A stretch of 39,564 nt of DNA from an uncultured Nitrospira sp. (lineage in GTDB: Bacteria; Nitrospirota; Nitrospiria; Nitrospirales; Nitrospiraceae): positions 1-39,564 of the forward strand of contig CABVRV010000028.1 of NCBI GenBank assembly GCA_902500755.1, read 5' to 3'. A program made the position numbers and the translations under genes. The notes beneath the pieces are model-generated. The model worked only from the letters and a program-made list of their open reading frames with translations. It had not been told where the DNA came from and did not search any database. The stretch's first letter is position 1, and every line of letters starts with the position of its first letter. This document shows, in pieces, positions 1,657 through 37,734 of the stretch.

Positions 1657-2040
1657 CTAAAATTCATCGATAGAGACTGGTCGGAGAAAATCACGGACCG
1701 ATACCAGACCGACGAGCGCACCCTCTTTGGTCACGCCGAGGTGGAGCGTACGATGCCTGTCCATGAGATCCGCAGCTTCCGTCAATGGCCGCCGCTCCTC
1801 GATGCCTGGGATCGGGCTGCTCATGATTTCTTCAATCGGCACGAAATACGCGGCTTTCTCCGCTCCAACGAACTTTTTGACGATATCTGATTCGGTCACG
1901 ATGCCGATGATCCTGGCTTGACGCGCGACGAGCACACTCTCAACATTGCAGGCTCTCATTAACTTCGCCGTTTCGACGACCGAGGTGCCGACGTCAACCG
2001 TCACCATTTCTTTCTGCATCAAATTGCCGACTGTCACCAT
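1657..2040 (-). CDS. CBS domain-pair protein
   Basis: A 127-residue protein made of two CBS motifs and nothing else (VGNLMQKEMVTVDVGTSV..., then IEEIMSSPIPGIEERRPLTEA...). Each repeat shows the typical pattern in which a M-x-x-x-x-x-V segment is followed by a helix and GIVTESDIV or GLVSVRDFL strands. Such stand-alone Bateman modules bind adenine nucleotides and act as energy or ligand sensors. The ATG is preceded by AAGGAGG with ideal spacing. The CYTH-CHAD gene follows after 171 bp, so the two may be co-transcribed. Its upstream region contains weak 11-bp-phased heptamers (see findings). The partner it regulates cannot be read from sequence. Confidence 0.9.
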   Translation of the reverse strand: MVTVGNLMQKEMVTVDVGTSVVETAKLMRACNVESVLVARQARIIGIVTESDIVKKFVGAEKAAYFVPIEEIMSSPIPGIEERRPLTEAADLMDRHRTLHLGVTKEGALVGLVSVRDFLRPVSIDEF

Positions 2041-2301
2041 GGGATCCTCCTTTTAATATTTATATTGGCCTCAAGGTACCAAGCGTCCGTTGCACCGGCG
2101 TTAGGTGGCGATTACAGGTCGGTAAACTTTTCGCGTGAAGAGATGTCACACGGTATTTACGATTCGGCAATGAGGCAGTGACTTACACAAGGCACATCTC
2201 TTCAATGCGGCAAAACGTTCCCCTCATGATCGATCAGGGTCACGACTTCAAGATGATGAAGAAGGATTCCTGTCGATTAGGAAGGTAAGGAGGTGCACAT
2301 T

Positions 2302-2415
2302 ATGGTTACCGAGCTACAGATGGGGTGTTCGCTCGCGAGATCCATCATGGTCCGCTTGGCCATCATCGTGATACGTGTCTGTGGCATGTTCGTCAGACTA
2401 AGACCAGCTCGCTGA
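2302..2415 (+). CDS. Possible 37-residue small protein
   Basis: The reading frame starts at an ATG that follows AAGGAGGTG with a six-base spacer, one of the best ribosome-binding sites in the window. The product is 37 residues with a hydrophobic middle (MVRLAIIVIRVCGMFV) and a basic end (RLRPAR). It resembles no family known to me. It could equally be the surviving 5' end of a decayed gene, since the following 300 bp are full of stops. The ribosome-binding site is the main support. Confidence 0.25.
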   Translation: MVTELQMGCSLARSIMVRLAIIVIRVCGMFVRLRPAR

Positions 2416-2543
2416 AGTCCCCGAGCGTACCCTCTAGACATGAAGCATCACGCTGTATCCTACAGCACGCAGGAAGCCAGTCGTTGATTACAAGTCGAAC
2501 GAGTTTGCTAGTGGAACCATGGGGATCGTGCGCTCGCGGTGTG

Positions 2544-2723
2544 TCAAGGAGGCGTCGCTGTCAACGTCGATACCAACACAAAGCGTATTCTTGAGGCGAA
2601 AGCTCCGATCGGGTTAACCGAGATGAATTCCTTGAATCGCCGACGATGGATTCGGCTTCCAAGCGAAAGCCGGTAGGGCAAGTTTGCCTCTAATCCGGCT
2701 CCCGCCTGTCCATTGCCGTGCAC
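2544..2723 (-). CDS. Possible 59-residue protein downstream of the 27-residue microprotein
   Basis: A GTG-initiated frame of 59 codons begins eight bases after AAAGGAGGG and runs to a TGA at 2544. It lies 43 bp downstream of the 27-residue ORF on the same strand. The translation has no recognisable domain (GNGQAGAGLEANLPYRLSLG... in the first third, basic in the middle). An overlapping plus-strand frame without a good start is just as protein-like, so this call is weak and rests on the ribosome-binding site and tandem position. Confidence 0.15.
   Translation of the reverse strand: MHGNGQAGAGLEANLPYRLSLGSRIHRRRFKEFISVNPIGAFASRIRFVLVSTLTATPP
2653..2700. other. Two mutually exclusive hairpins
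   Basis: CGGCTT at 2653-2658 can pair with AAGCCG at 2667-2672. The overlapping AGCCGG at 2668-2673 can instead pair with CCGGCT at 2695-2700, enclosing a second stem (GGGCA with TGCCT). Only one of the two can form at a time, which is the geometry of an attenuator or riboswitch. No U-tract follows on either strand, and no riboswitch consensus known to me matches. Confidence 0.25.
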
Positions 2724-2766
2724 TTCTGAATCTCCCTCCTTTCTGAGATCAATACGAGCACCTCAC

Positions 2767-2850
2767 TTACTCTCGCCACGCAGCGACCATTGAATACATC
2801 ACTGTCACAATGGCGCTTATCAGGATCACCTCGATCATCCATGTCGTCAT
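2767..2850 (-). CDS. 27-residue single-span membrane microprotein
   Basis: The frame encodes MTTWMIEVILISAIVTVMYS followed by MVAAWRE and a TAA stop. It is almost wholly hydrophobic, with one predicted transmembrane helix ending in a charged WRE tail. The ATG is preceded by GGAAGGAGGTGAAGAGCG, which contains the full AAGGAGGTG anti-16S complement with seven-base spacing. In size and build it resembles accessory subunits such as KdpF, CydX or CcoQ, but the sequence matches none of them to my eye, and no partner complex is encoded next to it. It is too short for standard gene finders. Confidence 0.45.
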   Translation of the reverse strand: MTTWMIEVILISAIVTVMYSMVAAWRE

Positions 2851-3073
2851 CGCTCTTCACCTCCTTCCATGTTAGGCCAGCTCCATGGCAATTAGTAGTT
2901 TGTTCTCCATTGACATGGTGCAATTCTATCGAAGCGTTGTTTCTTCTTAGTTACAATTGTGCCAATTGTGTGTAAAGAACTATGCGGTGGGCGTGAGGGG
3001 TAGAAAGCGAAGTAACCTCCCGGGTCTAGGATACTTGGGGAGCTCCTAAGGAATGGCGGCGATGATAGCCAAC

Positions 3074-3271
3074 CTAGCGGATACATGTGGATAGGACTGA
3101 GTCATTCGCGTCCCGGTTCGCTATATCGAGATGAGCTGTGAGTATCGCTGCCCCTCCTGACCGGTTCGCCGGAAGCGCGTTTTGCGAGAGTTGTGCGCGA
3201 AGATCTTTGATGCCGAGCAAACGCATAATGATGAACAATGTAAGTCTTTTCAGGATGCCATGATAACCCAT
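3074..3271 (-). CDS. Possible 65-residue small protein
   Basis: A 65-codon frame starts at an ATG with AAAGGAG seven bases upstream. The N-terminus is an amphipathic or hydrophobic stretch (GILKRLTLFIIMRLLGI). The rest is polar and unrecognised. The same frame is open 24 codons further upstream, so the ribosome-binding site is what decides this start. It could be a genuine small protein or a remnant. Confidence 0.3.
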   Translation of the reverse strand: MGYHGILKRLTLFIIMRLLGIKDLRAQLSQNALPANRSGGAAILTAHLDIANRDANDSVLSTCIR

Positions 3272-3861
3272 AGAGAAACTCCTTTCGTCCAGAACGTCGT
3301 TCAGAAGCCGGACGTCAATGCTATTCATGGCCTTGCCAGTCAAGGCATAGAGGCAGTGGGCGGTAAATTCTCAAAGCAAGGATATGATTGGCGTGTTACA
3401 AACCGGTTGCGGAGCCGTAAAGTTCGGGTTAAGAGAGCATAAAAACTTGCCCGGTGGCCTCCCATCGCTTGTGCGTTCAGAGGCTAGTTCGTCGAGTTCC
3501 GTTGCCTATTCGAGCCGCGCGCCGGTTTTCTGCGACGGACGCCAGCCTTGGAACAACCGCCAGCTCGGCGATACGCGTGTCTCGACCAGCGCCCGGCCCA
3601 CAGGGAACATGGATGAGCGGAAGGGACGAGAATTATACGTGTCCGGAATCATGGCCTCTACCATCTCTATGAATGTGCGGCTGTTGGGAGAAGCAGAGGG
3701 TGAGGCATTGACGTTCAATGGAAGTTACGAGAGCGTTAACATCTCGACACATTTTCGCGTGTACGTTTTGGGCAAGTCTACGAGGACAGTCTGACTCAGG
3801 CTCTAAGGTCTAGTGCGATGATTCGCGAATCGGCGGGAGCAATATGGATGGTTGAGGCCAA

Positions 3862-4512
3862 TCACTCGAATTCCTCCCACCCACTCAAGCGCGTGCCGAA
3901 GACCAAGGTGCGGTGATTGGTGGAAACTACAATAAGGCCGTTTTCGTTATCGACTCCCACGATGCGCTCGTGGACACCTAACGGCTTTGAGGCGAAACCG
4001 CCGAGAAGTGGCGTGAACCCTACCAATCGCTCATCCGTGATGAAGACGGCCCCATAGTCATTGCTGTGGAAGCGCGCGACTTTTTCCCGCATCCCCAATG
4101 GTTCCTCAAACCACAAGCCATTGACGCCTCGAAATCCGTATAGATGCCGATCCGTTCTGATGAGACTGAAGCTTGGGAAGATCTTCCGCTCGAGGACTTT
4201 TTCATTCACATCCAGTTCTTTCTTGCTCCAGGTTAGTGCTCGGCTTGAAAACCCTAAGAGCCGACGAGACGTCACGACGATGCCATTGATCCCATTCGTG
4301 CCGGTACTGATTACCACCTCTTGAGCTCCCAACGGTATCTCTCTCCGACCACTCAGTTGACTGGTCGCAACGGCTTGACCAGACTCCAGCCACAGCGTCA
4401 CTTCAGACCGGAGCTCTGACCCTGTGACGCCTTGCGAAAGGAGCCAGATCAAGGCCGAATAGGCGAAGAAGCATAGCCGAACCGGGGAGAGAAGGATTCC
4501 GAATGTGTTCAT
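3862..4512 (-). CDS. Secreted protein with exact 39-residue repeats (unknown function)
   Basis: A 216-residue protein with an N-terminal hydrophobic segment (about residues 10-30) that looks like a signal peptide or anchor. The rest is made of repeats. The motif T-x-x-x-x-L-x-G/F-F occurs at residues 81 (TSRRLLGF), 120 (TDRHLYGF), 159 (TDERLVGF) and 198 (TNHRTLVF), exactly 39 residues apart. Between them a second motif recurs: PLGAQEV, LDVNEKV, PLGMREKV and PLGVHERI. Repeats of this length rich in beta strands suggest propeller blades or a beta-solenoid. I know no named family for it. It is divergent from ppk1 and shares the intergenic region that contains the Pho-box-like repeats. The ATG at 4512 fits the signal segment. 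Confidence 0.75.
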   Translation of the reverse strand: MNTFGILLSPVRLCFFAYSALIWLLSQGVTGSELRSEVTLWLESGQAVATSQLSGRREIPLGAQEVVISTGTNGINGIVVTSRRLLGFSSRALTWSKKELDVNEKVLERKIFPSFSLIRTDRHLYGFRGVNGLWFEEPLGMREKVARFHSNDYGAVFITDERLVGFTPLLGGFASKPLGVHERIVGVDNENGLIVVSTNHRTLVFGTRLSGWEEFE

Positions 4513-4742
4513 GAATCCACCGGATAAATTGACTTACGAAGGACTCGTGGGTGGTTACTCTAACCAATCAGTGAACGATGAGTTCCAGCATAGCTTATCA
4601 AGCAACCGCGTAGAAGAGTGAGGGGCACGACGTTCTTCTTGAGATAGCTGGGCCGACCCACCATGACCGTGAATCAGAACGATGCAATCTGGGAATCCAA
4701 TGGAGAGGAGTGGCTGGGATCTTGGTAGAATACGAAGAGAAA

Positions 4743-4782
4743 TGTTACACATCTGTAACAGGCTCACAACAGCATTGTGACC
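4743..4782 (+). promoter_or_regulatory. Pho-box-like 11-bp repeats upstream of ppk1
   Basis: Four heptamers lie in tandem with four-base spacers: TGTTACA (4743), TGTAACA (4754), CACAACA (4765) and TGTGACC (4776). The 7+4 layout is that of PhoB binding sites, which are direct heptamer repeats every 11 bp. The site sits 68 bp before the ppk1 start codon and also upstream of the divergent repeat-protein gene, so it could control both. Confidence 0.6.
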
Positions 4783-4849
4783 TAGGTGGCATAGAGTCCT
4801 CCGGTTTTTGTGGTTCAAGCCGTAATCTCGCAATAGCGAAGGAGTTTCC

Positions 4850-6988
4850 ATGGTAGATCATTCTGCTGAACTGCGTGGTCCAGTTGTTGAAGGCGCGGAG
4901 GGAAGCGAGAAATCGATCCATTTCTTGAATCGTGAGATCAGCTGGCTGCGGTTCAATCTACGGGTCCTCGAAGAAGCCGAGGATAAACGGCATCCTCTCT
5001 TGGAACGAGTAAAGTTTCTGACTATCTTCGCCACAAACCTGGATGAGTTCTTCATGATTCGGCTGTCCGGTCTCCGTCGTCAAGTGGCGGCTGGGACGGG
5101 AGGAACGACACCGGACGGCATGACACCATCTGAGCAAATATTGGCGATCAACCGAGAGCTGAACGTTCAGTTTGAGCGATACGATAGGTGCTGGAAGCAG
5201 GACGTGTTACCAAGCTTGCGGGAAGCCGGTATCCGGATTCTGCATTATGTGGATTTGACGGCGAGGGAGCGAGACGCGATTCAGCAGTACTTTCAACGTG
5301 ACATCTTCCCAGTGCTCACTCCACTGGCATTTGATCCAACCCATCCCTTCCCGCATATCTCAAGTCTGAGTTTCAATCTTGCTGTGTTGGTAAAAGACCC
5401 TGAGCGTGGCGATTGTTTCGCACGGGTCAAAGTGCCGGATGTCTTTCCAAGACTGGTTCCCATTCCTACCGACAAAGATGTCGCCCTCCAGCAGCTGGGA
5501 CTGGGTGGGATGGGAAAAATTCAACAATTTGTGTGGCTAGAGGAAGTCATCGCTCATAACTTGGATGACCTCTTTCCAGGCCTGGAAGTGGGCGCCTCGT
5601 ACCCATTCCGTGTGACGAGAGATGCGGATGTGGCCATTGAGGAAGACGAAGCGTCTGATCTCATCGAGGCGATGGAGGAGCAGCTCGATCAGCGAGATTT
5701 CACCTCAGCCGTTCGATTGGAACTGGATGCGACGACACCGGAGCACATCCGTGAGATTCTGATGCGCAATCTTCAGTTACCACCGTACCTGGTCTACACG
5801 GGGGACAACCCGATCGGTATGGCAGGGATTCGCGAACTCTATGCGCTTGAACGTCCCGACATGAAGGATCCGCCGTTTTTGCCGTCTGTGCCGCCTTGCT
5901 TGAGCAAGTCGAACAATCTCTTAGCTGCTATCCGAGAACAGGATGTCCTCTTGTATCATCCCTACGACAGCTTCATGCCGATCGTAGAATTTCTACGAGA
6001 GGCCGCAAACGATCCGGATGTGCTCGCGATCAAGCAGACCCTCTATCGCGTCAACCCGAAATCCCCCATTGTCGATGCGCTCATGGAGGCACGCGTCAAC
6101 GGCAAGCAAGTTGCGGTCTTGGTCGAGCTCAAAGCGCGATTCGACGAAGAAAACAATATTGAATGGGCCAGGAAACTGGAAGATGAAGGTGTGCATGTTG
6201 TGTACGGGGTACGCGGCCTCAAGACGCATGCGAAGGTGTGTCTCATCGTCCGGCGGGAACCCGATGGGATCCGCCGCTACGTTCATCTCGGCACGGGAAA
6301 CTATAACGTGGTCACCAGTCGTATCTATACCGATTTGAGCTATTTCACGTGCGACCCCGCCATTAGCCACGATGTATCCGATCTATTCAACTCCTTGACC
6401 GGGTACGCCCGCAAAAATTCCTATTCCAAGCTCCTCGTCGCACCGACGATGCTGCGGCAGCAACTGCTTGATCGGATCGAGCGCGAGACGAGCCGGCATC
6501 GCCAGCACGGTGATGGATATATCGCCTTCAAGATGAACGCGTTGGTTGATACGCAGTGTATCCAGGCGCTCTACCACGCATCGCAAGCAGGAGTCAGGAT
6601 TGACCTTCAGGTGCGGGGCATTTGTTGTCTGCGACCGGGTCTCCCCGGGATCAGCGAAACCATCACTGTCACCTCAGTAGTCGGGCGTTTTCTGGAACAT
6701 GCGCGGATCTATTATTTTCGTCACGGTGGAGAGAATGAGGTGTTGATCGGGAGCGCTGATCTGATGCCGCGCAATCTTGATCATAGGGTAGAAATTCTCG
6801 TCCCCGTACAACATCCTCGCTGGCGCGAGATCATCATCAATGACATTCTCACGGTCGGGCTACGCGACAATGTGCAGGCAAGACGATTGCTCGCCGACGG
6901 GACGTATGAGCGAATCCATGCCGCAGCTGGTGAAGTCGCCGTGAATTCGCAGCAATGGCTGTTGGATCACTGGAAATCTCGATCATGA
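4850..6988 (+). CDS. ppk1: Polyphosphate kinase 1
   Basis: The enzyme reversibly transfers the gamma-phosphate of ATP to growing inorganic polyphosphate. The 712-residue length is normal for PPK1. The N-terminal domain begins with FLNREISWLRFN. The two phospholipase-D-like catalytic halves are complete: the histidine that becomes phosphorylated lies in KTHAK (His460), with HLGTGNYN shortly after. The second conserved histidine lies in RHGGENEVLIGSADLMPRN (His625). AAGGAG precedes the ATG by six bases. The upstream Pho-box-like repeats suggest induction under phosphate limitation. The neighbouring CYTH-CHAD protein and phosphatase fit a polyphosphate and phosphate-homeostasis locus. Intact, no anomalies. 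Confidence 0.98.
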   Translation: MVDHSAELRGPVVEGAEGSEKSIHFLNREISWLRFNLRVLEEAEDKRHPLLERVKFLTIFATNLDEFFMIRLSGLRRQVAAGTGGTTPDGMTPSEQILAINRELNVQFERYDRCWKQDVLPSLREAGIRILHYVDLTARERDAIQQYFQRDIFPVLTPLAFDPTHPFPHISSLSFNLAVLVKDPERGDCFARVKVPDVFPRLVPIPTDKDVALQQLGLGGMGKIQQFVWLEEVIAHNLDDLFPGLEVGASYPFRVTRDADVAIEEDEASDLIEAMEEQLDQRDFTSAVRLELDATTPEHIREILMRNLQLPPYLVYTGDNPIGMAGIRELYALERPDMKDPPFLPSVPPCLSKSNNLLAAIREQDVLLYHPYDSFMPIVEFLREAANDPDVLAIKQTLYRVNPKSPIVDALMEARVNGKQVAVLVELKARFDEENNIEWARKLEDEGVHVVYGVRGLKTHAKVCLIVRREPDGIRRYVHLGTGNYNVVTSRIYTDLSYFTCDPAISHDVSDLFNSLTGYARKNSYSKLLVAPTMLRQQLLDRIERETSRHRQHGDGYIAFKMNALVDTQCIQALYHASQAGVRIDLQVRGICCLRPGLPGISETITVTSVVGRFLEHARIYYFRHGGENEVLIGSADLMPRNLDHRVEILVPVQHPRWREIIINDILTVGLRDNVQARRLLADGTYERIHAAAGEVAVNSQQWLLDHWKSRS

Positions 6989-7149
6989 AAAGCTGCTTGG
7001 AGGCTGGCGGGGCGTATCCTGATGGGACTTCTCCATGTGACAGTCCTGACACACGGGAAATGGCAATAACAGTTATGATCCATGACGATTGGTGGATAGC
7101 ATGAAATACTCACGGCCATCTGTTTCGCATGGCTCCACGTCATCTCTCT

Positions 7150-8274
7150 TTAGTGCTGATTCAGCGGGAGAAATGACACGGCGATGGAAAGCGCGATCAA
7201 AATGATAATGATCCACTCAAGAACTTCCATCCGCCTGGTGCCGGCCCGGTCCGACATCTTGCTGTAAATACTTTCCAGAGTCTGCAGCTTTCGAAGGATG
7301 CTCGCGTCCCAGGCTTCCAGATGGAATCGTTGCGAAGCGAGGCGATACACACGCGCCAGATATTGATCACCAAGCAGCTTCAGGGTATTGGTCACGCGCT
7401 CGAAGATTAAGGCGCTATCGACTTGGAGCTGAGCGATGTGTGTCATGTCTTTTTCGTGGGAGCCGGGGAGGGACAAGCGTCGCGGCTTTCGAGTCAAAGC
7501 TTCGTAGCCCTCGTCCAAGGCCCGATCGAGCTGTTCGTCAAGTATCCGCATCTCCAGCAATTCCACATTGGCGAATTCCAGCACCGCACGGACATCGTCC
7601 ATTTCCTTCCCGAACAAGACTGCGGAGTGCCAGTCGATGATGGCTGCGTCTTCTTGCCCGAACGAGATTCGACACGACACTGCATCGGCTACTTCCTGCT
7701 CCGAGAACGGAGTGCGTTCGGCCCGCAGAATCTGAGCCAAGTCAGTCTCATGGCTCATCCATAACGGAGGTGTCTCCGGTACAGAGGACTCGATCGAGAA
7801 CAGAATGTAGTCCTCCACGTCCTCTGCAATGGCTGGCCGCTCGATGGCGGGGCCTAGCGCCCGAACCAGCTGTTCCACGCGGGCGCGCGACTCGGTCAGC
7901 AATCGTTCGTTCTCGTAGAGCGCCCCGCTCAACTCCAGCAGCCGATCGAACGGCCCATCGAGAGAGAAGCGATAGGTGATGGTGACTGCCCCGAAGTCAT
8001 ACGCCATGACTTCGATCATAGGACTCGCTTGATACCGACTGATGTCGAACACGCTCCCTTCCTGCACGAGTCGCAAAGGAGCCGGCCGATACTCGAAGTA
8101 CTGAGGCGCTCTGGTTTTATGGCGCAGGCGCCCTCGTTCCGCCCCGGCGATGATCCGTTGTTCCGCATCCGTTAAGTTGATAGAGAGTCCGACATCATAG
8201 GCGAAGAGTGCGAAACAGGTCCCTTTAGTGATGGTGACATCTTCCGGCATAGAGGTGTCTTTGCAAGTCATCAT
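7150..8274 (-). CDS. DUF155 (RMD1/RMND1-type) membrane protein
   Basis: A 374-residue protein with a soluble N-terminal alpha/beta part, a central helical segment and one C-terminal transmembrane helix preceded by RRMEVLEWIIIILIALSIAV. That ending, together with the W-x-x-x-x-x-F-x-x-E segment and the coiled helix before it (LEFANVELLEMRILDEQLD), is the pattern of DUF155, the family of yeast RMD1 and mitochondrial RMND1. Bacterial members are tail-anchored inner-membrane proteins of unknown role. It is divergent from phoX, and the Pho-box-like site between them may serve both. The start could be either of two adjacent ATGs (8274 or 8271). Confidence 0.75.
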   Translation of the reverse strand: MMTCKDTSMPEDVTITKGTCFALFAYDVGLSINLTDAEQRIIAGAERGRLRHKTRAPQYFEYRPAPLRLVQEGSVFDISRYQASPMIEVMAYDFGAVTITYRFSLDGPFDRLLELSGALYENERLLTESRARVEQLVRALGPAIERPAIAEDVEDYILFSIESSVPETPPLWMSHETDLAQILRAERTPFSEQEVADAVSCRISFGQEDAAIIDWHSAVLFGKEMDDVRAVLEFANVELLEMRILDEQLDRALDEGYEALTRKPRRLSLPGSHEKDMTHIAQLQVDSALIFERVTNTLKLLGDQYLARVYRLASQRFHLEAWDASILRKLQTLESIYSKMSDRAGTRRMEVLEWIIIILIALSIAVSFLPLNQH

Positions 8275-8351
8275 ACCAGCTTTTTCTCTTCTGCTGATTG
8301 ATAGTCAACCTGATCGTCTGGCGGAAGCCTTAGTAGTCCATACCCGCGAGT

Positions 8352-8391
8352 GTTAACGAAATCGTTACCAGTTTTTCACCGACCTGTAACG
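8352..8391 (+). promoter_or_regulatory. Pho-box-like 11-bp repeats upstream of phoX
   Basis: Heptamers GTTAACG (8352), CGTTACC (8363), TTTCACC (8374) and TGTAACG (8385) are separated by four bases each, an exact 11-bp period. The site lies 90 bp upstream of the phosphatase start codon and 78 bp upstream of the divergent DUF155 gene. A PhoX phosphatase is a classic Pho-regulon member, which strengthens the assignment. Confidence 0.65.
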
Positions 8392-8480
8392 AACAGATGC
8401 GAAAGTGATGGTGTTTACAAAGCCATGTCCGCCGTGATGTCAACGGAACGTTCATCCGAGCTTGAGGGGGAGGAGGCTCA

Positions 8481-10502
8481 ATGTCGATGATCGATGACGA
8501 GAGTGTGAGTAACATTTCTGACAATGAACACTTTCAAGACATTGTGAACACGCGCTTGTCGAGACGCAGTTTCTTGACAGGCGGATTTGCGGCAGCCGCA
8601 GCCGCCTCGCTGGGAGGTGTCGAAGCGTTGTTACAGACTCTCCCCGCGACCGCAAAGGAAACGGAGGAAGAGGACGATGCAGATGTAGGGGTGGAAGGTC
8701 GTGGGGGCCGGCAGCCGATGCTAGGGTTCGAAAGTGTGCCGGTCTCCTCTGCCGACGAGATTGTCGTGCCGAAAGGGTATTCGGCTGAAGTGCTGATCGC
8801 CTGGGGCGATCCAGTCTCCAGCGGTCCCACATTCAAACCGGATGCAAGCAACACCGCCGATGAGCAGGCTCGCCAGTGGGGCATGCACAACGACGGGGTC
8901 GTCTATTTTCCGATCTCCGGATCACGGCGAGGATTGATCGTCCAAAACAACGAATATACCGACGATGGGTTGCTGTTCCCGGACGGGGTGAGCAACTGGA
9001 CGCCGGAGAAGACCAAGAAATCGTTGAATGCTCATGGTGTATCGATCATCGAAGTAGCCAGACGGAACGGATTCCACTTTGACCTGCGAGGACATCGAGG
9101 CAAGGGTAAGTGGGATGTGGTGAGACCGTCTCGGTTCGCTCGCCGTATCACGGGTATGACTCCAATCGAGATCGGTGGGCCGGCTGCGGGGGATCCTCGA
9201 TTGGTCACGAGTGAAGATCCAACTGGGCGTCGCGTGCTGGGTACGCTCAACAATTGTGCGATGGGTTTTACGCCTTGGGGTACCTACCTTGCCTGCGAGG
9301 AGAATTTTAACGGCTATTTCCGGAAAGACGGTCCGCAGACGGCGCTGGAAAAACGCTATGGCATTACGGCGGCAGGGTTCGGGTATTTGTGGCACACGAC
9401 CGACAAGCGATTTCGCGTAGATGAGGAACCGAACGAACCGAATCGGTTCGGCTGGGTGGTAGAAATCGATCCCTTTCGTTCGCACTCCACGCCGGTGAAG
9501 CGGACGGCTCTCGGCCGTCTCAAACACGAGGGCGCCTGGGTGCAGGAAGCGCGGAACGGCCGCGTCGTGGTCTATATGGGTGACGACGAGCGAAACGAGT
9601 ATATGTATCGCTATGTCTCCAATTTGCCTTGGCGTCAGGCCCGTCAGCAGGGCATCAATCCCCTTGATGACGGCGTTCTCTATGCCGCGAAGTTCCATAC
9701 GGATGGGACCGGTGAATGGCTGCCTCTGACGCCGGACAATCCCCGTTTGGCGGGGTGGTCGCTCAACGATATCCTCATCAACACGCGTGGCGCTGTGGAT
9801 GCGGTTGGAGCGACCATGATGGATCGTCCTGAATGGATCGAAACCTTTCCCAAAGACCTGACTGCCATCGCGACGTTGACCAACAACAGTCGGCGCGGAA
9901 CGACTCCGCCGTCGGTAAACCACCCCGATGGGACCACCAGTGCTGGGTCCGCGCGGCCTCCGATAGACGCGCCGAATCCTCGCGCAGTCAACAACTACGG
10001 ACACATCATCCGCTGGTACTATCGGCAGGACTGGACGGAACTGACCTTTGATTGGGATATCTTTGCCCTCTGCGGCGATCCGACGAATCCGGCTCATGGC
10101 GCGACGATCGTCGGCGACACGTATGGGTCGCCGGACGGCATCTACGTGGACCGAAGTGGCCTGATCTGGATTCAGACCGATGTCTCGACCTCGACAATCA
10201 ATGCAGGGGCGTACGTCGGGTTCGGAAACAATCAGATGTTGGCAGCCCATCCGGAAACCAGAGAGACTCGGCGCTTTCTCGTGGGCCCGAATCAGTGCGA
10301 AATTACCGGTGTCTTCATGACGCCGGATCGGCGCACCATGTTCGTCGGGATTCAACATCCTGGCGAGCGGCCGGATGATCAGCCGGGTGATCCGAATAAC
10401 CCAAAGCAGTTCAGCTCCTGGCCGGATGGTCCGAGCGGTGGTCGCCCGCGCTCGGCCCTAATCGTCGTAACAAAAGATGACGGTGGCAAGATTGGGAGCT
10501 GA
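8481..10502 (+). CDS. phoX: PhoX-family alkaline phosphatase (DUF839), Tat-exported
   Basis: A 673-residue protein whose N-terminus carries a twin-arginine signal (LSRRSFLTGG, then an alanine-rich hydrophobic stretch to about residue 55), so it is exported folded. The mature part matches the PhoX/DUF839 type: GYSAEVLIAWGDP, the segment with WGMHNDGVVYFP, NNCAMGFTPWGTYLACEENFNGYF, the KHEGAWVQEA stretch and a C-terminal GPNQCEITGVFMTPD segment. PhoX enzymes are calcium- and iron-dependent phosphomonoesterases that release phosphate from organic esters in the periplasm. The start ATG follows GGGGGAGGAGG. It is preceded by a four-repeat Pho-box-like site. Substrate range is not readable from sequence. 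Confidence 0.9.
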   Translation: MSMIDDESVSNISDNEHFQDIVNTRLSRRSFLTGGFAAAAAASLGGVEALLQTLPATAKETEEEDDADVGVEGRGGRQPMLGFESVPVSSADEIVVPKGYSAEVLIAWGDPVSSGPTFKPDASNTADEQARQWGMHNDGVVYFPISGSRRGLIVQNNEYTDDGLLFPDGVSNWTPEKTKKSLNAHGVSIIEVARRNGFHFDLRGHRGKGKWDVVRPSRFARRITGMTPIEIGGPAAGDPRLVTSEDPTGRRVLGTLNNCAMGFTPWGTYLACEENFNGYFRKDGPQTALEKRYGITAAGFGYLWHTTDKRFRVDEEPNEPNRFGWVVEIDPFRSHSTPVKRTALGRLKHEGAWVQEARNGRVVVYMGDDERNEYMYRYVSNLPWRQARQQGINPLDDGVLYAAKFHTDGTGEWLPLTPDNPRLAGWSLNDILINTRGAVDAVGATMMDRPEWIETFPKDLTAIATLTNNSRRGTTPPSVNHPDGTTSAGSARPPIDAPNPRAVNNYGHIIRWYYRQDWTELTFDWDIFALCGDPTNPAHGATIVGDTYGSPDGIYVDRSGLIWIQTDVSTSTINAGAYVGFGNNQMLAAHPETRETRRFLVGPNQCEITGVFMTPDRRTMFVGIQHPGERPDDQPGDPNNPKQFSSWPDGPSGGRPRSALIVVTKDDGGKIGS

Positions 10503-10588
10503 AATTACCACAAAGGTGAAAGATCCTTGGAATAAAGCTCCAAAGGCCATCCATGCAAGGAGGACGAGATGCAAGCTCGGCTACCTCG

Positions 10589-10786
10589 CTACCTCATCCT
10601 GCCAAGGCCTTGTGTCGGCAGCGACGGCGGTTCATGAATGGCCAGATCCTGTTCTAACTCGCGCGCTGCTTGATCAGCAGGGTCAGCATATAGTGCTCGC
10701 TCGGGTGGCTGTGAAGGCGTGAGGTCCCAATCGGCCGGTAATGAGGCACGTTGCTGGTTGAGTTCCTTTCGCAAACGCTCGGTCAT
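10589..10786 (-). pseudogene. Truncated DksA/TraR-type protein lacking the zinc finger
   Basis: The N-terminal coiled-coil half of a DksA/TraR-family protein is readable: MTERLRKELNQQRASLPADW followed by YADPADQAARELEQDLAIH, which matches the conserved D-P-x-D-x-A-x-x-E-x-E region of that family. The frame then turns into unrelated residues (EPPSLPTQGLGRMR) and stops. The C-terminal C4-type zinc finger found in normal members is absent, and I could not find it in the other frames of the next 90 bp, before the phoX stop codon. DksA-type proteins modulate RNA polymerase with ppGpp. This copy is most likely a remnant, tail-to-tail with phoX. Confidence 0.55.
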
Positions 10787-10914
10787 AGGTTGCACCGCCA
10801 GGAGTGTGCGCGGTTTATCGTTCGATGCACGCGACTGACACTGTATTTCGGATGAGGGACACATCACTGGTCTCTTGTCTTGCGATCAGTAGTATAGGAT
10901 TCGTGGGGTCGAAT

Positions 10915-10943
10915 GGTTACGGAATGCTTACGTCCTTGTAAAA
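10915..10943 (+). promoter_or_regulatory. Pho-box-like 11-bp repeats upstream of the ars operon
   Basis: Three heptamers GGTTACG (10915), GCTTACG (10926) and TGTAAAA (10937) are spaced by four bases, an exact 11-bp period. TTGTAA (10936-10941) with TGCATA 17 bp downstream (10959-10964) could serve as -35 and -10, so the last heptamer overlaps the -35 element, as PhoB sites do. The sequence resembles the repeats before ppk1, phoX and the response-regulator gene. Confidence 0.45.
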
Positions 10944-10977
10944 TTTTCGACTCGGTCTTGCATAGGCAGTGCGGAGG

Positions 10978-11000
10978 TTGATTAATCAATAATGTTTGAT
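10978..11000 (+). promoter_or_regulatory. Candidate ArsR operator
   Basis: A perfect 12-bp palindrome TTGATTAATCAA (10978-10989) overlaps a second inverted repeat, ATCAA-N6-TTGAT (10985-11000), directly upstream of the arsR ribosome-binding site. Inverted repeats with TCAA/TTGA half-sites are typical ArsR/SmtB operators, so autorepression of the ars operon is likely. Confidence 0.6.
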
Positions 11001-11013
11001 GTATAAAGGAGCC

Positions 11014-11340
11014 ATGGTGGAGACCAGGACGAAAACAAGGGAGAAGGCAGCATGTCTCTTTCATGCGCTCTCGGACGAGACGCGAGTACGAATTTTGGAA
11101 CAACTTCGCGACGGCGAGCAATGTGTATGTGAGCTTACAGAAGCGTTCAACACAGGCCAGTCGCGACTCTCTTTTCATCTTCGTGTGTTGAAGGACGCAG
11201 GGCTGGTCATCGATCGCCCGGAAGGGCGATGGATCTATTATTCGATCAGTCAGGATGCGATTCAAGAACTGGAGGATCTCGTCGCCTGGCTTAAGGAATC
11301 TCGGTTCGTATACTCGAAACCGGCCGCTCCCTGTGCCTAG
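11014..11340 (+). CDS. arsR: ArsR-family arsenite-responsive repressor
   Basis: A winged-helix repressor of about 108 residues (FHALSDETRVRILEQLRDGEQ, then LSFHLRVLKDAGLV as the recognition helix region). The metalloid-sensing CxC pair is present in the segment EQCVCEL at the start of the helix-turn-helix, as in the E. coli R773 ArsR type (ELCVCDL). Binding of arsenite releases it from DNA. Several starts are possible in frame (10996 TTG, 10999 ATG, 11014 ATG, 11017 GTG); AAGGAG at 11006-11011 favours 11014 or 11017. It is the first gene of arsR-acr3-arsC, with the candidate operator just upstream. Confidence 0.93.
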   Translation: MVETRTKTREKAACLFHALSDETRVRILEQLRDGEQCVCELTEAFNTGQSRLSFHLRVLKDAGLVIDRPEGRWIYYSISQDAIQELEDLVAWLKESRFVYSKPAAPCA

Positions 11341-11430
11341 CGCTATTTTTTTATTCGAAGTATCAAGAAATGTTGATGGACTATCATTGTCGCTTCGTTG
11401 TCATTTGTTGAGTCAAAGGGGGAATTGGGT

Positions 11431-12528
11431 ATGGACATTGCCATGACATCAAGTTCACCGACTCAGTCTCTCGAAAAGCGGCTGAATCTGTTCGAGCGAT
11501 ATCTCACGATATGGGTAGCTCTCTGCATGATAGTGGGGGTGCTGCTGGGGCAAGCGGCCCCCGGCGTTGCCCAATGGCTGCGCAGTTGGGAATTCGGGGA
11601 AGGCAGCCACGTGAATGCCCCCATTACTTTTCTCATCTGGCTCATGATCATCCCCATGATGATGAAGATTGACGTGGCCTCCATCTGCAATGTGGGGAAG
11701 AGGCCGACGGGATTGCTGGTGACCCTCTTCGTGAATTGGGTCGTCAAGCCGTTTTCAATGGCGTTCTTCGCCTGGGTATTTTTCCGGCTCGTGTTCTCCG
11801 CCTGGATTGCTCCGAGCGAGGCGGATCAATATATAGCCGGAACGATTATTTTGGCTGCGGCACCCTGTACCGCCATGGTGTTCGTCTGGAGCTATTTGAC
11901 GGACGGAGATCCTGCGTACACACTGGTGCAAGTTTCTGTGAATGATCTCATTATGCTGGCGCTCTTTGCTCCCATCGTCGGGTTTCTGGTCACCGGTGCC
12001 TCAGCTTTGACGGTTCCGCTTCCGGTCCTGTTCTATTCAGTCGTCGCATTTATTGTCATTCCGCTCGTGCTCGGCGTGATGCTGCGGCACTGGTTCATCG
12101 CACAACGGGGCCAAGCCTGGTTCGAAGACCTGTTACTTCCGAGGTTTGCCCCCATCACTATCCTCGCGTTGCTCGCCATGCTGGTCTTGCTCTTTGCGTT
12201 TCAAGCCGACAATATCACTGGAAAGACGTGGCATGTGGCGCTCATAGCCGTCCCCATTCTGATCCAGGTCTATTTCAATGCCTCATTGGCCTATGCCTTG
12301 ATGAAGTGGCTCAAGGTGCCACATTCGGTCGCAGCTCCGGGGGCACTGATCGGTGCGAGTAACTTTTTCGAGTTGGCGGTCGCGACTGCCATTGTCTTGT
12401 TTGGACCAGAGTCGGGTGCTGCGTTAGCCACTGTGGTGGGAGTGCTCGTGGAGGTGCCTGTCATGCTCTCCGTCTGTGCCTTCTGTAATCGCACACGCAC
12501 CTGGTTTCCAGTGGAGCAGACGGCATGA
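11431..12528 (+). CDS. acr3: Arsenite efflux permease, ACR3 family
   Basis: An inner-membrane carrier of about 365 residues with ten hydrophobic segments. It begins with the typical LNLFERYLTIWVALCMIVGVLLG. The essential cysteine of ACR3 lies in AAAPCTAMVFVWS, and the late conserved helix with GASNFFELAVATAI is present. It exports arsenite using the proton motive force. GGGGGAATTGGGT precedes the ATG at 11431, making this start better than the in-frame ATG at 11398. Its stop overlaps the arsC start by four bases (ATGA), so the two are translationally coupled. Confidence 0.95.
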   Translation: MDIAMTSSSPTQSLEKRLNLFERYLTIWVALCMIVGVLLGQAAPGVAQWLRSWEFGEGSHVNAPITFLIWLMIIPMMMKIDVASICNVGKRPTGLLVTLFVNWVVKPFSMAFFAWVFFRLVFSAWIAPSEADQYIAGTIILAAAPCTAMVFVWSYLTDGDPAYTLVQVSVNDLIMLALFAPIVGFLVTGASALTVPLPVLFYSVVAFIVIPLVLGVMLRHWFIAQRGQAWFEDLLLPRFAPITILALLAMLVLLFAFQADNITGKTWHVALIAVPILIQVYFNASLAYALMKWLKVPHSVAAPGALIGASNFFELAVATAIVLFGPESGAALATVVGVLVEVPVMLSVCAFCNRTRTWFPVEQTA

Positions 12529-12980
12529 GACCCACCGTTCTCTTCTTGTGCACGGGAAACTCCTGCCGCAGTCAGATGGCGGAGGGATGGCTCCGTCGCT
12601 TGGCTGGAGGTCGATTCGACGTTCTGAGCGCAGGGACCAATCCGGTCGGGGTGAACCCGCAAGCCATTGCGGTGATGGAGGAAGTGGGAATCGATATCTC
12701 TCGTCACCGGTCGAAGCACGTTGCAGAACTACAGGGGCGACGGCTCCACTATGTCATTACGGTGTGTGATCACGCTCAGGCATCTTGCCCAACGGAGCCA
12801 AGGGGAGACGTCAGGATACACTGGGGTTTTGATGACCCTGTTCATGCACAAGGCTCCGTTCCGGAACGTTTGCGGGTCTTTCGGCGAGTACGCGATGAGA
12901 TTGGTGAGCAAATTCAAGGGTGGCTGCGAGCAGCTGATCAGGAGGCGGAGTCTTACGTAACATCGTTGCCAGTTGAATGA
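12525..12980 (+). CDS. arsC: Thioredoxin-coupled arsenate reductase
   Basis: A 151-residue protein of the low-molecular-weight tyrosine phosphatase fold. The P-loop CTGNSCRSQ contains the nucleophilic Cys9. The resolving pair Cys81 and Cys88 lies in VCDHAQASCP, which defines the thioredoxin-dependent type (as in Bacillus subtilis and Staphylococcus ArsC) rather than the glutaredoxin type. It reduces arsenate to arsenite, which the adjacent Acr3 exports. It overlaps the acr3 stop codon by four bases. The tail after about residue 140 (QEAESYVTSLPVE) is unconserved. Confidence 0.96.
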   Translation: MRPTVLFLCTGNSCRSQMAEGWLRRLAGGRFDVLSAGTNPVGVNPQAIAVMEEVGIDISRHRSKHVAELQGRRLHYVITVCDHAQASCPTEPRGDVRIHWGFDDPVHAQGSVPERLRVFRRVRDEIGEQIQGWLRAADQEAESYVTSLPVE

Positions 12981-13055
12981 CCAGAGAAACGAGGACAAGT
13001 TGGAGAGGCAGCGACTGGGGCGCGATGTGGTTGTCATCTGAAAAGGCAGGGAAAG

Positions 13056-13766
13056 TTAGTGCGTCTGAGGCTGATCCAAGAGCTTGTATCCGAGAGATTT
13101 GATGGATGTGATGGTCTCATTGAGGAATGGAATCTTCACTTTCAAGCGCCGGACATGGACATCGACGGTTCGCGTCGTCCCATAATAATCGTAACCCCAC
13201 ACCTCATTGAGAAGCACCTCTCGCGTCAGCACTCGCCCAGGATGACGCAACAGATGCTTGAGCAGTCCAAACTCTTTGGCTGTGAGAGGCACTTCCTGCC
13301 CTTTGGCCGTGACTTCGTGTCTGGTCAGATCCATTTGAAGCGGACCATAGGCCAAGGATGTGGGTTGATGATCGGCTACTCGATCCACGCGACGAAGGAG
13401 AGCCTTTATCCGGGCTACCAACGTCTTGGGGCTGAAAGGCTTCGTCATATAATCATCGGCGCCGAGTTCAAGCCCGACGACGGTATCGGACTCGTCATTT
13501 TTTGCTGTCAGCATGATGATGGGAAGAAGTGCGGTCTCTGGCTTGCGCCGCAAGGTCTTACACACTTCCAACCCATCCATCTGCGGCAGCATGAGATCCA
13601 GAACTACGAGATCGGGGCGTTCTGATGCCGCGAGCTTTTGTGCTTCATGACCGGTGTCCGCGATGCACGGATGATATCCTTCCTTCTCGAGGTAGAGCTT
13701 GATCAACTGGGCGATCTCTCGTTCATCTTCCACGATGAGGATTTTCTTGGGCCGTTGTGAAGTCAT
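13056..13766 (-). CDS. OmpR/PhoB-family response regulator (orphan)
   Basis: The receiver domain (residues 1-120) has the acidic pair in VEDERE, the phospho-acceptor aspartate at about 57 (VVLDLMLP) and the switch lysine in TKPFSPK. The C-terminal winged helix (about 135-230) ends with the usual TVDVHVRRLKVKI and ITSIKSLGYKL segments. GGGGGAG before the ATG at 13766 gives a 236-residue protein; an ATG 27 bases upstream is also in frame. No sensor kinase lies beside it: arsC converges on one side and the ABC exporter gene lies upstream. The Pho-box-like repeats in its own promoter and the phosphate genes nearby make a PhoB role likely, but this is inference. Confidence 0.9.
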   Translation of the reverse strand: MTSQRPKKILIVEDEREIAQLIKLYLEKEGYHPCIADTGHEAQKLAASERPDLVVLDLMLPQMDGLEVCKTLRRKPETALLPIIMLTAKNDESDTVVGLELGADDYMTKPFSPKTLVARIKALLRRVDRVADHQPTSLAYGPLQMDLTRHEVTAKGQEVPLTAKEFGLLKHLLRHPGRVLTREVLLNEVWGYDYYGTTRTVDVHVRRLKVKIPFLNETITSIKSLGYKLLDQPQTH

Positions 13767-13819
13767 GAGACTCTCCCCCACGTTTAATTCCATCCGTGTG
13801 GGGAATCATAGACCCTCTG

Positions 13820-13848
13820 TGTTACAGGCTCGTTACGGAGATGTTCCG
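13820..13848. promoter_or_regulatory. Pho-box-like 11-bp repeats upstream of the response regulator
   Basis: On the plus strand TGTTACA (13820), CGTTACG (13831) and TGTTCCG (13842) follow each other with four-base spacers. Read on the gene's strand this gives CGGAACA, CGTAACG and TGTAACA. The site lies about 55 bp upstream of the regulator's start codon, which suggests that the regulator controls its own gene. Confidence 0.55.
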
Positions 13849-13932
13849 CTTGAATCGTGCGCGTTGAGCCGAGGAAATGAGTTGGTCAGCGAACGGGATG
13901 AAGACTCAAGATCTTAGAAATCCGCAAAGCGT

Positions 13933-15663
13933 TTAGGCAGTCGGTTCGTTCAGGCGGATGGTATAAAGATAGTGGTACAGCCCCTGATGTTCCAGCAGTT
14001 GTGCATGGGTGCCTTCCTCAACGAGCTTTCCTTTGTCGAGAACCAAAATGCGGTCGGCACGCTGAATCGTCGACAGCCGGTGGGCGACCACGAAGGTGGT
14101 GCGTCCTTCCATGAGGCGTTGGAGTGCTTCTTGGACCAGGCGCTCTGAATCGGTGTCGAGCGAGGATGTCGCCTCGTCGAGTAAGAGAATGCGAGGATCT
14201 TTCAGGATCGCTCGAGCGATCGCGATTCGTTGACGCTGTCCACCGGACAAGTTGACTCCTTTTTCACCGACCACGGTTTGATACCCGTCCGGTAAGGTTG
14301 TGATGAAGTCGTGCGCATGAGCGGCTTTGCTGGCTTTCCATACAGTCGTTTCGTCTGCGTCCATCTTCCCGTAACGAATATTGTCGAGGATCGTGCCTCC
14401 GAACAGGATAGTTTCCTGCGGGACCAGCGCGATCTGTCGATACCAACTCTCAAGCATCACGTCTCGGAGGTCTCTTCCGTCAATGGTGAGACGCCCCTCT
14501 GTTGGATCATAAAACCGGTGTAAGAGATTGATCACCGTAGTTTTGCCGGCACCGGTTGGTCCGACCAACGCAACGAGTTCGCCGGGCTTGGCTTCAAAGG
14601 AGAGATTGGACAATACCGAACGGCGAGGATCATAGCCAAACGTGACGTTCTCCATCCGCACATGGCCCTCGACTGTGACGAGTGTCTGCGCGCCTGCTCG
14701 ATCGTCAATGTCCGGCTGCGCATCCAGTATCTCGAAGACACGTTGCGTAGCTCCTTGGGCCTCTTTGATCTGCGTAAAGACGCGCGCGGCTGCGCTGAAG
14801 GGCCCGATCAGAATGCCCGCGAACAAGACGAACGCGAACAGATCGCCCGGCGTCACGGTCCCGTCGATAACCTGCCGGCCTCCGTACCACAATACGGCGG
14901 TCGCCGACGAAAAGGTCATGAGGCTGATCACCGGAATGAAAACGGCCATGATGCCCGCTCGGCTGAGTGTGAGATGAAGCGTCTGATCGACCTGATCGGC
15001 GAAGCGATCTGTTTCTCGCTGCGCTTGCACGAACGACTTGACGATGCGGATGCCGGAAATCACTTCTTCGGCCAAAGTGCTCAGCGTGGCGGTATGGTCT
15101 TGAATCGATGTGGAAAGGGATTTCAACCTACGTCCAAACAGCTTTGAGACCACAACGAGTAATGGAAGCAGAATCAGGATAAGGAGACAGAGTTGCCAAT
15201 TCATGAGGAGCAGGAACGTAATGCCTCCCACGAAGGTCACCAGTTGTTTCACTGCGTCAATGGGGGTTTCTGTGACCAGGGACTGAATGACCGTCACATC
15301 GGACATCAATCGGGACAACAATTCGCCCGTGCGCCGGCGAGAAAAAAAACTCACCGTCAAGGTTTGCAGGTGGGCGAAGAGATGTTTGCGGAAATCGGTG
15401 ATGACGTTCTGAGAAACCCAGGCTGTCAGATAACTATGGCCCATGGAGCATAGTCCCTGGAGAATGACTAGTCCCAAGAACACGCCGATCAACTGCGTCA
15501 TTTTGTCGGCGTCATGCTGGACGGTCACAATATCCCAGAGGGTGCCGGCCAGTCTGACCAATGCAAGATTGATGGCCGCCACTCCCGACACCAGGAGGCC
15601 GGCCAGTATCAGGCGTCCCAGGTACGGCCGTACATATGGAAGGAATCGTTTGCAGATCAACAT
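13933..15663 (-). CDS. MsbA-like ABC exporter (half transporter with fused ATPase)
   Basis: A 576-residue protein with six transmembrane helices in the first 310 residues and a complete ATPase: Walker A GPTGAGKTT, Q-loop VPQETILFGG, signature LSGGQRQRIAIARAI, Walker B ILLLDEATSSLD and the switch histidine in VVAHRLSTI. Homodimeric transporters of this build flip lipids such as lipid A core, or export drugs or peptides. Position after the two small genes at 15754-16098 suggests a short operon. MsbA would be the default guess, but substrate cannot be decided from sequence alone. Confidence 0.92.
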   Translation of the reverse strand: MLICKRFLPYVRPYLGRLILAGLLVSGVAAINLALVRLAGTLWDIVTVQHDADKMTQLIGVFLGLVILQGLCSMGHSYLTAWVSQNVITDFRKHLFAHLQTLTVSFFSRRRTGELLSRLMSDVTVIQSLVTETPIDAVKQLVTFVGGITFLLLMNWQLCLLILILLPLLVVVSKLFGRRLKSLSTSIQDHTATLSTLAEEVISGIRIVKSFVQAQRETDRFADQVDQTLHLTLSRAGIMAVFIPVISLMTFSSATAVLWYGGRQVIDGTVTPGDLFAFVLFAGILIGPFSAAARVFTQIKEAQGATQRVFEILDAQPDIDDRAGAQTLVTVEGHVRMENVTFGYDPRRSVLSNLSFEAKPGELVALVGPTGAGKTTVINLLHRFYDPTEGRLTIDGRDLRDVMLESWYRQIALVPQETILFGGTILDNIRYGKMDADETTVWKASKAAHAHDFITTLPDGYQTVVGEKGVNLSGGQRQRIAIARAILKDPRILLLDEATSSLDTDSERLVQEALQRLMEGRTTFVVAHRLSTIQRADRILVLDKGKLVEEGTHAQLLEHQGLYHYLYTIRLNEPTA

Positions 15664-36807: not shown

Positions 36808-37734
36808 ATGAAAGTATTGGTGACGGGTGGTGCAGGATTTATTGGGTCTCATGTGGTGGACCGACTCGTGGAAGAGGGGCATCAGGTTGTCGTCGTCGAT
36901 AATCTGGCCACCGGAAAGCGAAAAAACGTCAACCGCGCGGCGAGTCTCTATAAGACCGACATTACCAGCGGGCGATTGGAGCGGGTGTTCCGCAACGAGC
37001 GACCCAACGTGGTCCTTCATCTCGCGGCTCAAATCAGCGTGCGTAATTCTGTCGAGGATCCAGTATTCGATGCGCAAGTCAACGTCCTGGGCACCATGAA
37101 CGTATTGCAACAGGCGGTTCGGTATGGATGCAGAAAGGTTGTCTTTTCTTCGTCCGGGGGAGCAATCTACGGTGAGCAAGAGACGTTCCCGGCCCCGGAA
37201 TCCCACGGCTATAACCCGCTGTCACCCTATGGCATCAGTAAGCTGTGCGGTGAACATTACTTGTCCTACTTCCAACGCACGGGCGGGATTCCAGTGGTCA
37301 GTCTACGATACGCCAACGTATATGGACCACGGCAGGATCCTGAGGGAGAAGCCGGGGTGGTCGCCATCTTTATCCAAAAGATGTTGAATAATGAGCAGCC
37401 TATTATCAACGGAAACGGCCGACAAACACGCGACTTTGTGTTCGTGGATGACGTGGCGGAAGCTAATCTTGCAGCCATGGGCCAGGATGCGCACGGGGTC
37501 TACAACGTCGGAACCGGGACCGAGACATCTGTGAACGAGCTCTTCCGAATGATTGCTGGTCTGACCGGTTCTCCCGCGAAGGAAGTCCATGGCCCGGCTA
37601 AACTCGGCGAACAGCTGAGGAGCGTAATCGATCCTTCCAAGATTAAACAGGAGTTGGGGTGGGAGGTGAAGGTCGATCTCGCCGAAGGACTCAAGCAGAC
37701 TGTCGAATTTTTTCAGGGGAAAGTAGGTCGTTGA
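36808..37734 (+). CDS. NAD-dependent epimerase/dehydratase (UDP-glucose 4-epimerase-like)
   Basis: A 308-residue extended short-chain dehydrogenase. The NAD motif is VTGGAGFIGSHVVD (residues 5-18). The active site has SSSGGAIYG and the tyrosine-lysine pair in SPYGISKLCGE. Further marks are LRYANVYGPRQDP and GRQTRDFVFVDDVAEA. Its closest type is GalE-like UDP-glucose or UDP-GlcNAc 4-epimerase of surface-sugar pathways, but no sugar genes are adjacent, so the substrate is open. GAGGAGG precedes the ATG. Confidence 0.9.
   Translation: MKVLVTGGAGFIGSHVVDRLVEEGHQVVVVDNLATGKRKNVNRAASLYKTDITSGRLERVFRNERPNVVLHLAAQISVRNSVEDPVFDAQVNVLGTMNVLQQAVRYGCRKVVFSSSGGAIYGEQETFPAPESHGYNPLSPYGISKLCGEHYLSYFQRTGGIPVVSLRYANVYGPRQDPEGEAGVVAIFIQKMLNNEQPIINGNGRQTRDFVFVDDVAEANLAAMGQDAHGVYNVGTGTETSVNELFRMIAGLTGSPAKEVHGPAKLGEQLRSVIDPSKIKQELGWEVKVDLAEGLKQTVEFFQGKVGR

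Follow-up and report, generated by a model that had tools for sequence, protein, structure and literature searches.

Do the phased heptamers that precede phosphate-related genes in an uncultured Nitrospira form a Pho box, and, if so, which genes and which regulator does it join? The stretch analysed here (the window) is contig CABVRV010000028.1 at its full length of 39,564 nucleotides, which is contig C28 of a genome of 3.83 Mb in 203 contigs (94% complete). It encodes polyphosphate kinase 1 (ppk1), PhoX, ArsR, ACR3, an arsenate-reductase-like protein, a PhoB-type regulator, an ABC exporter, and CHAD/CYTH and CBS proteins. An initial annotation had proposed four heptamer arrays, at 4743, 8352, 10915 and 13820, as boxes of a Pho regulon joining polyphosphate, phosphatase, arsenic and regulator genes. 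The coordinates of the four arrays are correct and their four-base spacers exact, giving direct heptamers at the 11-bp period of a Pho box. Our analysis revealed that the phased heptamers are very probably Pho boxes, and there is good support for a lineage-specific box shared by ppk1, phoX and the regulator gene: a matrix from the pstS promoters of relatives ranks these sites among the best of the window. The features that carry this finding are as follows.

13820..13848, minus strand: putative Pho-box array of the orphan PhoB-type response regulator gene, CGGAACA tctc CGTAACG agcc TGTAACA
13805-13810, minus strand: -10 hexamer TATGAT of the orphan regulator promoter, 15 nucleotides past the G of the last unit
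4743..4782, plus strand: putative four-unit Pho-box array of the ppk1 promoter, with a -10-like TAGAGT at 4792-4797
4850..6988, plus strand: ppk1, polyphosphate kinase 1 (TIGR03705, 861 bits, cut-off 466)
8352..8391, plus strand: putative four-unit Pho-box array of the phoX promoter, with a -10-like GAAAGT, a weak hexamer, at 8401-8406
8481..10502, plus strand: phoX, alkaline phosphatase (PF05787, 499.9 bits)

The heptamer matrix was built from 84 units in the pstS promoters of 28 relatives, with the genome of the window left out, and its consensus is TGTAACA. This confirms that the core is not the enterobacterial TGTCA; the mixed unit spellings of the initial annotation do resemble each other, but their orientation had to be corrected, the unit being TGTAACA when read in the direction of the gene. 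Sites were scored as three (or four) matrix units in 11-bp phase, and the background consisted of 18 stretches, each of 20 kb and together about 360 kb, from the same genome, chosen by contig number and not randomly. Scoring in either orientation was adopted only after the sites had been seen. With three units in either orientation, the best separate sites in the window were the regulator, ppk1 and phoX arrays, those at 3394, 2088 and 3712 (described below), and the 10915 array. The regulator array (13820) and the ppk1 array (4743) have no equal in the background, and the phoX array (8352) has none as four units and 7 as three units in a single orientation. The 10915 array is the weakest, with 2 background equals as three units in either orientation (0.22 expected per window), 7 with one orientation and 7 as four units. 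Furthermore, clusters scoring at least 10 numbered 6 in the window at period 11 versus 0 or 1 at each of the periods 7-10 and 12-16, and the whole background held 2 such clusters at period 11.

Absence of the motif before the pst genes had been named at the outset as an observation that would speak against a Pho box. Contig C96 encodes PstS, PstC, PstA and PstB, each over its NCBIfam cut-off (PstB is cut by the contig end), and also carries a Porin_O_P gene; arrays were found directly before pstS (5814-5854) and before the porin gene (7318-7358). Boxes thus stand before pst genes as well as before a phosphatase gene, as in a Pho regulon.

Conservation across the genus was analyzed in the loci among the matches listed for each gene (at most 30 for pstS, phoX, acr3 and ppk1). 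A pstS match was present in 52 of the 59 genomes, and the pstS test comprised 30 loci, with the more distant pstS genes of the genus left out. Among these matches listed, three units in which 13 or more of the 15 core bases agree are found at period 11 in 29 of the 30 loci (the exception is L200), and at periods 8-10 or 12-15 no locus reaches this value. For the porin gene, 21 regions gave 18 scored promoters (3 gave none); all 18 have an array, 17 exceed the background maximum, and TTAACA-like units occur among them. The ppk1 array was detected in 15 of 20 upstream regions, three of the five misses being genes of 74-75% identity. With a template derived from the phoX promoters themselves, 16 of 25 distinct phoX promoters have at least 17 of 20 core bases, 5 have 14 and 4 have 10, and the four at 10/20 were dropped before the profile was made. 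The array before the CBS-domain gene is present in 5/5 genomes, with invariant core columns (20/20) versus 9/21 of the other columns.

Outside the genus, the background maximum of the genome of the window is exceeded by 10 of 20 stretches upstream of pstS (2/2 in genus g4, 3/8 in g2 and 5/5 in family f2 of the order), and by none in f11 (0/3, one stretch having only 173 bases) or among the others with distant pstS genes (0/2). Judged from these promoter sequences, the motif reaches beyond the genus within the order.

Two other features of contig C96 (L100) lie beside the pst genes. The PstC-like protein (2344-4665, minus strand) is unusually long, with 773 amino acids, and its first part has weak WD40/beta-propeller matches. 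Additionally, three TTTAC units in 11-bp phase (8162-8199) precede an open reading frame (ORF) of 240 amino acids without a Pfam match.

The distance from array to -10 hexamer was analyzed with a -10 matrix (standard sigma-70 frequencies, from general knowledge) scored 8-23 nucleotides past the G of the last unit in each promoter family; some pattern matches were sought anywhere in the named loci, and a few may fall outside the intended promoter. The mean score peaks at 15 nucleotides in seven of the eight families, namely pstS (22 distinct stretches from the 30 loci), regulator (21), DksA-like (10), CBS (5), porin (16), phoX (16) and the 2938 site (3), and at 16 nucleotides in ppk1 (15 stretches). 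In the DksA-like family, a degenerate position 11 nucleotides past the last clear unit was taken as the last unit, so that the phase is kept. The array takes the place of the -35 element at a fixed distance from the -10 hexamer, as a Pho box does. When array and -10 were scored jointly in the window, 7 clusters were obtained at 15 nucleotides versus 3-6 at other distances, a modest contrast because the arrays dominate this score; the test by family is the sharper one.

The regulator encoded in the window had been named as the protein to be tested on the boxes, and as an orphan.

13056..13793, minus strand: orphan PhoB-type response regulator gene (Response_reg and Trans_reg_C; the start may be the second ATG, at 13766)

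The term orphan proved apt, as no kinase gene lies beside it and the gene behind it encodes the ABC exporter. Its best NCBIfam match is PhoB (TIGR02154, 245.3 bits, cut-off 296.2). On contig C23, another PhoB-like regulator gene (36959-37657) is directly followed by a gene for a PhoR/PnpS-like kinase; this regulator also matches PhoB best (241.4 bits versus the cut-off of 296.2), and the kinase is above the PnpS cut-off (417.8 versus 400) and below that of PhoR (302.5 versus 334.2). Both kinds exist in the genus, phoB with a PhoR/PnpS-like kinase and the kinase-less regulator. In the regulator tree, whose outgroups are long and whose root is uncertain, 25 kinase-less regulators, that of the window among them, group together as one clade (support 96/91), and ten paired regulators make up its sister clade; the regulator L260, with no kinase detected beside it, falls within the paired clade and was not counted as an orphan. 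A phased pair of units was found in the orphan promoters of 19/24 relatives, all 19 with TAnnnT at 15 nucleotides, and among 39 paired phoB promoters none has 9/10 core bases and three have 8/10.

The recognition helices of paired and orphan regulators are nearly identical, and in genomes where only the paired kind was found (E<=1e-60), such as G018, G017, G047, G005 and G013, the pstS array is still present. From these two observations and the promoter survey, the C23 PhoB is likely the founder regulator, and the regulator in the window an added, box-controlled paralog. In this way, the initial proposal is right in that the window regulator is an orphan paralog and itself an apparent target, and has to give way in treating it as the sole candidate, since the C23 pair is another. 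A leading role of the orphan at all boxes, in place of the C23 pair, seems improbable to us: its gene does sit among the targets with a box of its own in most relatives, but genomes with only the paired kind keep the pstS array and the orphan has no kinase of its own.

The array at 10915 requires a different assignment from the one that it had been given.

10915..10943, minus strand: array assigned by the initial annotation to arsR, TTTTACA agga CGTAAGC attc CGTAACC, reading towards the DksA-like ORF
10889-10894, minus strand: hexamer TACTAC, 26 nucleotides past the last clear G, which is 15 nucleotides past the degenerate fourth position
10589..10867, minus strand: remnant of a DksA/TraR-like gene, 92 amino acids, with the zinc-finger half missing
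10996..12980, plus strand: arsR, acr3 and arsC-like genes, probably bystanders of the 10915 array

Homologs of the 92-residue ORF were detected in 15 other fetched loci, and 10 of the 16 loci with a DksA-like ORF (window included) carry a 10915-type array upstream of it, with 14/15 core columns conserved versus 5/14 spacer columns. The expected -10 place is occupied by TATCAC in 9/9 array-bearing relatives and by TACTAC in the window. The C4 zinc finger PF01258 is present in both relatives' proteins that were scanned (L146, 32.4 bits, and L145, 40.7 bits; cut-off 24.9) and was not found in the truncated ORF of the window; the best match is to the full DksA model TIGR02420, at a score below its cut-off. 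In G038 and G016 the array is present, the fetched stretch holds no ars match and the genomes have no ACR3 match at E<=1e-80. Towards arsR, no -10-like hexamer is found in the window at the Pho distance of 15 nucleotides, and a palindrome resembling an ArsR operator (identified by eye) is conserved further down on that side. Based on its orientation, its -10 spacing, its conservation and its occurrence without ars nearby, the array is most likely that of the divergent DksA/TraR-like gene, which is truncated in the window, and the ars genes are probably not members through the 10915 box. We therefore do not retain the arsenic genes in the regulon as it had been drawn. Control of arsR-acr3-arsC by this array, which would bring arsenic resistance into the Pho regulon, is unlikely, if less so than a leading role of the orphan regulator. 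The array adjoins close ACR3 relatives in four cases, lying 5' of arsR in the window and G012 and 5' of acr3 in G039 and G027, and in Halomonas PhoB is known to control genes for arsenite oxidase (PMC4563254); on the other side, besides the DksA-like linkage and spacing, just these two of 21 arsR upstream regions (window and G012) carry it. A different 11-bp-phased stretch of GTTAA-like units, of similar rank, stands before arsR in G026 and G052 (L302 and L304). A shared promoter region might serve both the DksA-like and the arsR sides.

Several observations weigh against a TGTAACA phosphate regulon as a whole. A loose pattern (three GTTAC in 11-bp phase, at most 3 mismatches) gave 31 matches genome-wide versus 93 in the reversed control, so the loose pattern shows no genome-wide excess; the signal lies in their clustering, with 16 of the 31 matches in the window contig (10) and C96 (6). 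A 44-position model of the pstS promoter had no genome-wide matches other than pstS (E 2e-7) and one C23 stretch (E 0.37), and at E<1 in the window it found the response regulator (E 0.049), ppk1 (E 0.12) and a borderline site at 3724 (E 0.99), missing the phoX and 10915 arrays; it is of little use because the spacers are modelled too, and the unit-wise phased matrix was used instead. The phoX array is missing in 4 of the 25 promoters and marginal in 5 more, and the phoX -10 hexamer is weak (mean score 0.9). Five orphan regulators, forming one subclade, have no box, and both PhoB-like proteins of the genome are below the PhoB cut-off. Finally, PhoU (TIGR02135) had no match at E<=0.001 in the genome of the window, which is 94% complete and was the one searched (the control was found in 13/14). 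The missing PhoU match, although pstSCAB is present, may reflect an assembly gap or a real absence.

Could the arrays then be chance clusters of short AT-rich words? The lack of genome-wide enrichment and the degenerate units at phoX, 10915 and CBS would agree with this, but the independent matrix, the period control, the conservation of cores over spacers and the fixed -10 distance disfavour it strongly, and we consider it extremely improbable. Sites of another OmpR-type regulator, answering a different signal and controlling these genes incidentally, are also quite improbable, though less so. Direct heptamers at an 11-bp period are typical of the whole OmpR/PhoB family, the kinase and the regulators fail the strict PhoR and PhoB models, and PhoU was not found in this genome; against these points stand the genus-wide arrays before pstSCAB, the Porin_O_P gene and phoX, PhoB as the best NCBIfam match of both regulators, and a C23 kinase that passes PnpS. 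We hold it highly probable, from the sequence comparisons above, that these are PhoB-bound TGTAACA Pho boxes of a phosphate regulon under the C23 pair and the orphan paralog.

The regulon is wider than the four promoters first proposed: in the window, the CBS-domain gene has to be added, and perhaps two small ORFs as well.

2088..2127, minus strand: four-unit array before the CBS-domain gene, with -10 TACCTT at 2073-2078
1657..2040, minus strand: CBS-domain protein gene (PF00571)
3394..3422, minus strand: three-unit array before an ORF of 65 amino acids (3074-3271), with -10 TATCCT at 3379-3384
2938..2955, minus strand: weak two-unit array, TGTAACT aaga AGAAACA, before an ORF of 27 amino acids (2767-2850), with -10 TAGAAT at 2923-2928
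3712..3740, minus strand: array-like stretch, unsure, maybe coding, without a good -10

The 3394 array was recognised by eye in two relatives, L145 and L149 (three genomes with the window), and a regular-expression search of the relatives matched nothing. The 2938 site is present in the window, G046 and G038; the 27-residue ORF behind it (2767-2850, minus strand) has a strong ribosome-binding site and a hydrophobic sequence besides the weak Pho-box-like promoter. The 3712 array scores as a site but is doubtful as a target, as the stretch could be coding in the window and G046 and has no good -10.

Elsewhere in the genome, a phased array-like stretch (score 11.2) lies on C23 (L155) at 14307-14346, before the S-adenosylmethionine synthetase gene (metK), and a loose-pattern match at C95:2617 was rejected, being inside a NUDIX ORF. 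The gene order ORF3862-ppk1-ORF7150-phoX-(ars)-regulator-ABC exporter (window 3862-15663) is retained, whole or in part, in many genomes of the genus. The label DUF155 that had been given to 7150-8274 found no backing, with no Pfam match at E<=0.001 and no NCBIfam match.

In the mechanism that we propose, phosphate shortage would probably be sensed by PstSCAB and the C23 PhoR/PnpS-like kinase. A phosphorylated PhoB-type regulator would bind TGTAACA-type heptamers, 11 bp apart, head-to-tail in place of the -35 element, and RNA polymerase would start from the -10 hexamer 15 nucleotides past the G of the last unit. The C23 pair would thereby activate pstSCAB, the phosphate porin, ppk1, phoX, the CBS-domain gene, the DksA/TraR-like gene and the gene of the orphan regulator. 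This second PhoB has an almost identical recognition helix and may amplify the response. We infer a division of labour between the two regulators, as we do their binding, phosphorylation and induction by phosphate shortage. Tentatively, and with somewhat more doubt than belief, we suggest that positive feedback has moved from phoB-phoR to a duplicated, kinase-less, Pho-box-controlled PhoB that borrows the kinase of the pair, that the regulon goes past phosphate uptake and includes the synthesis of polyphosphate, a DksA-like factor of RNA polymerase and very small proteins, and that the TGTAACA box extends over much of the order.

Relatives of this Nitrospira include major nitrite oxidisers. 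With a defined box, the phosphate regulon could be recognised in genomes across a largely uncultured order. Such a box also predicts a coupling of polyphosphate synthesis to phosphate shortage, and it provides a case in which the takeover of autoregulation by a duplicated response regulator can be tested. No description of a Nitrospira Pho box was found in the literature searched, which subscription papers mostly lay outside, and the accessible part of PMC7533571 mentions Nitrospira only among arsenite oxidisers.

The E. coli Pho box consists of direct 7-bp units with 4-bp spacers, and the core of the Pho box differs between species (PMC4415409, accessible part). The enterobacterial TGTCA core is not found here; since the core varies between species, the TGTAACA arrays may still belong to the wider class. 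Shared with E. coli are the four units before pstS, the targets (pstSCAB, a phosphatase and a regulator gene) and the distance to the -10 hexamer, as in K-12 pstS TGTCACC is followed by TATTTT at the same 15 nucleotides. In contrast with E. coli, the core is TGTAACA instead of TGTCA, the orientation of units is mixed at ppk1 and phoX, no PhoU was found in this genome, and the box stands on the promoter of the orphan paralog and not on that of the phoB-phoR pair. In Bacillus subtilis, the PhoP box has a TTAACA-type consensus. In Streptomyces, the PhoP box is GTTCACC (accessible part of PMC4415409). Direct repeats with an 11-bp repeat unit are common to these PhoP boxes and the arrays described here, whose porin copies include TTAACA-like units, whereas the consensus and the extra regulator are particular to the Nitrospira system. 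As in the PnpR-PnpS and PhoB-PhoR systems, a kinase that passes PnpS lies directly behind a PhoB-like regulator on C23; unlike them, an additional kinase-less PhoB paralog is placed inside the regulon. The idea of a link between phosphate and arsenic resembles that of PhoB and arsenite oxidase in Halomonas sp. HAL1, as far as described in the accessible part of PMC4563254, with the difference that the array here is more probably that of the DksA-like gene. Taken together, the system is very probably of a known type, distinguished by a variant motif and by a further copy of the master regulator.

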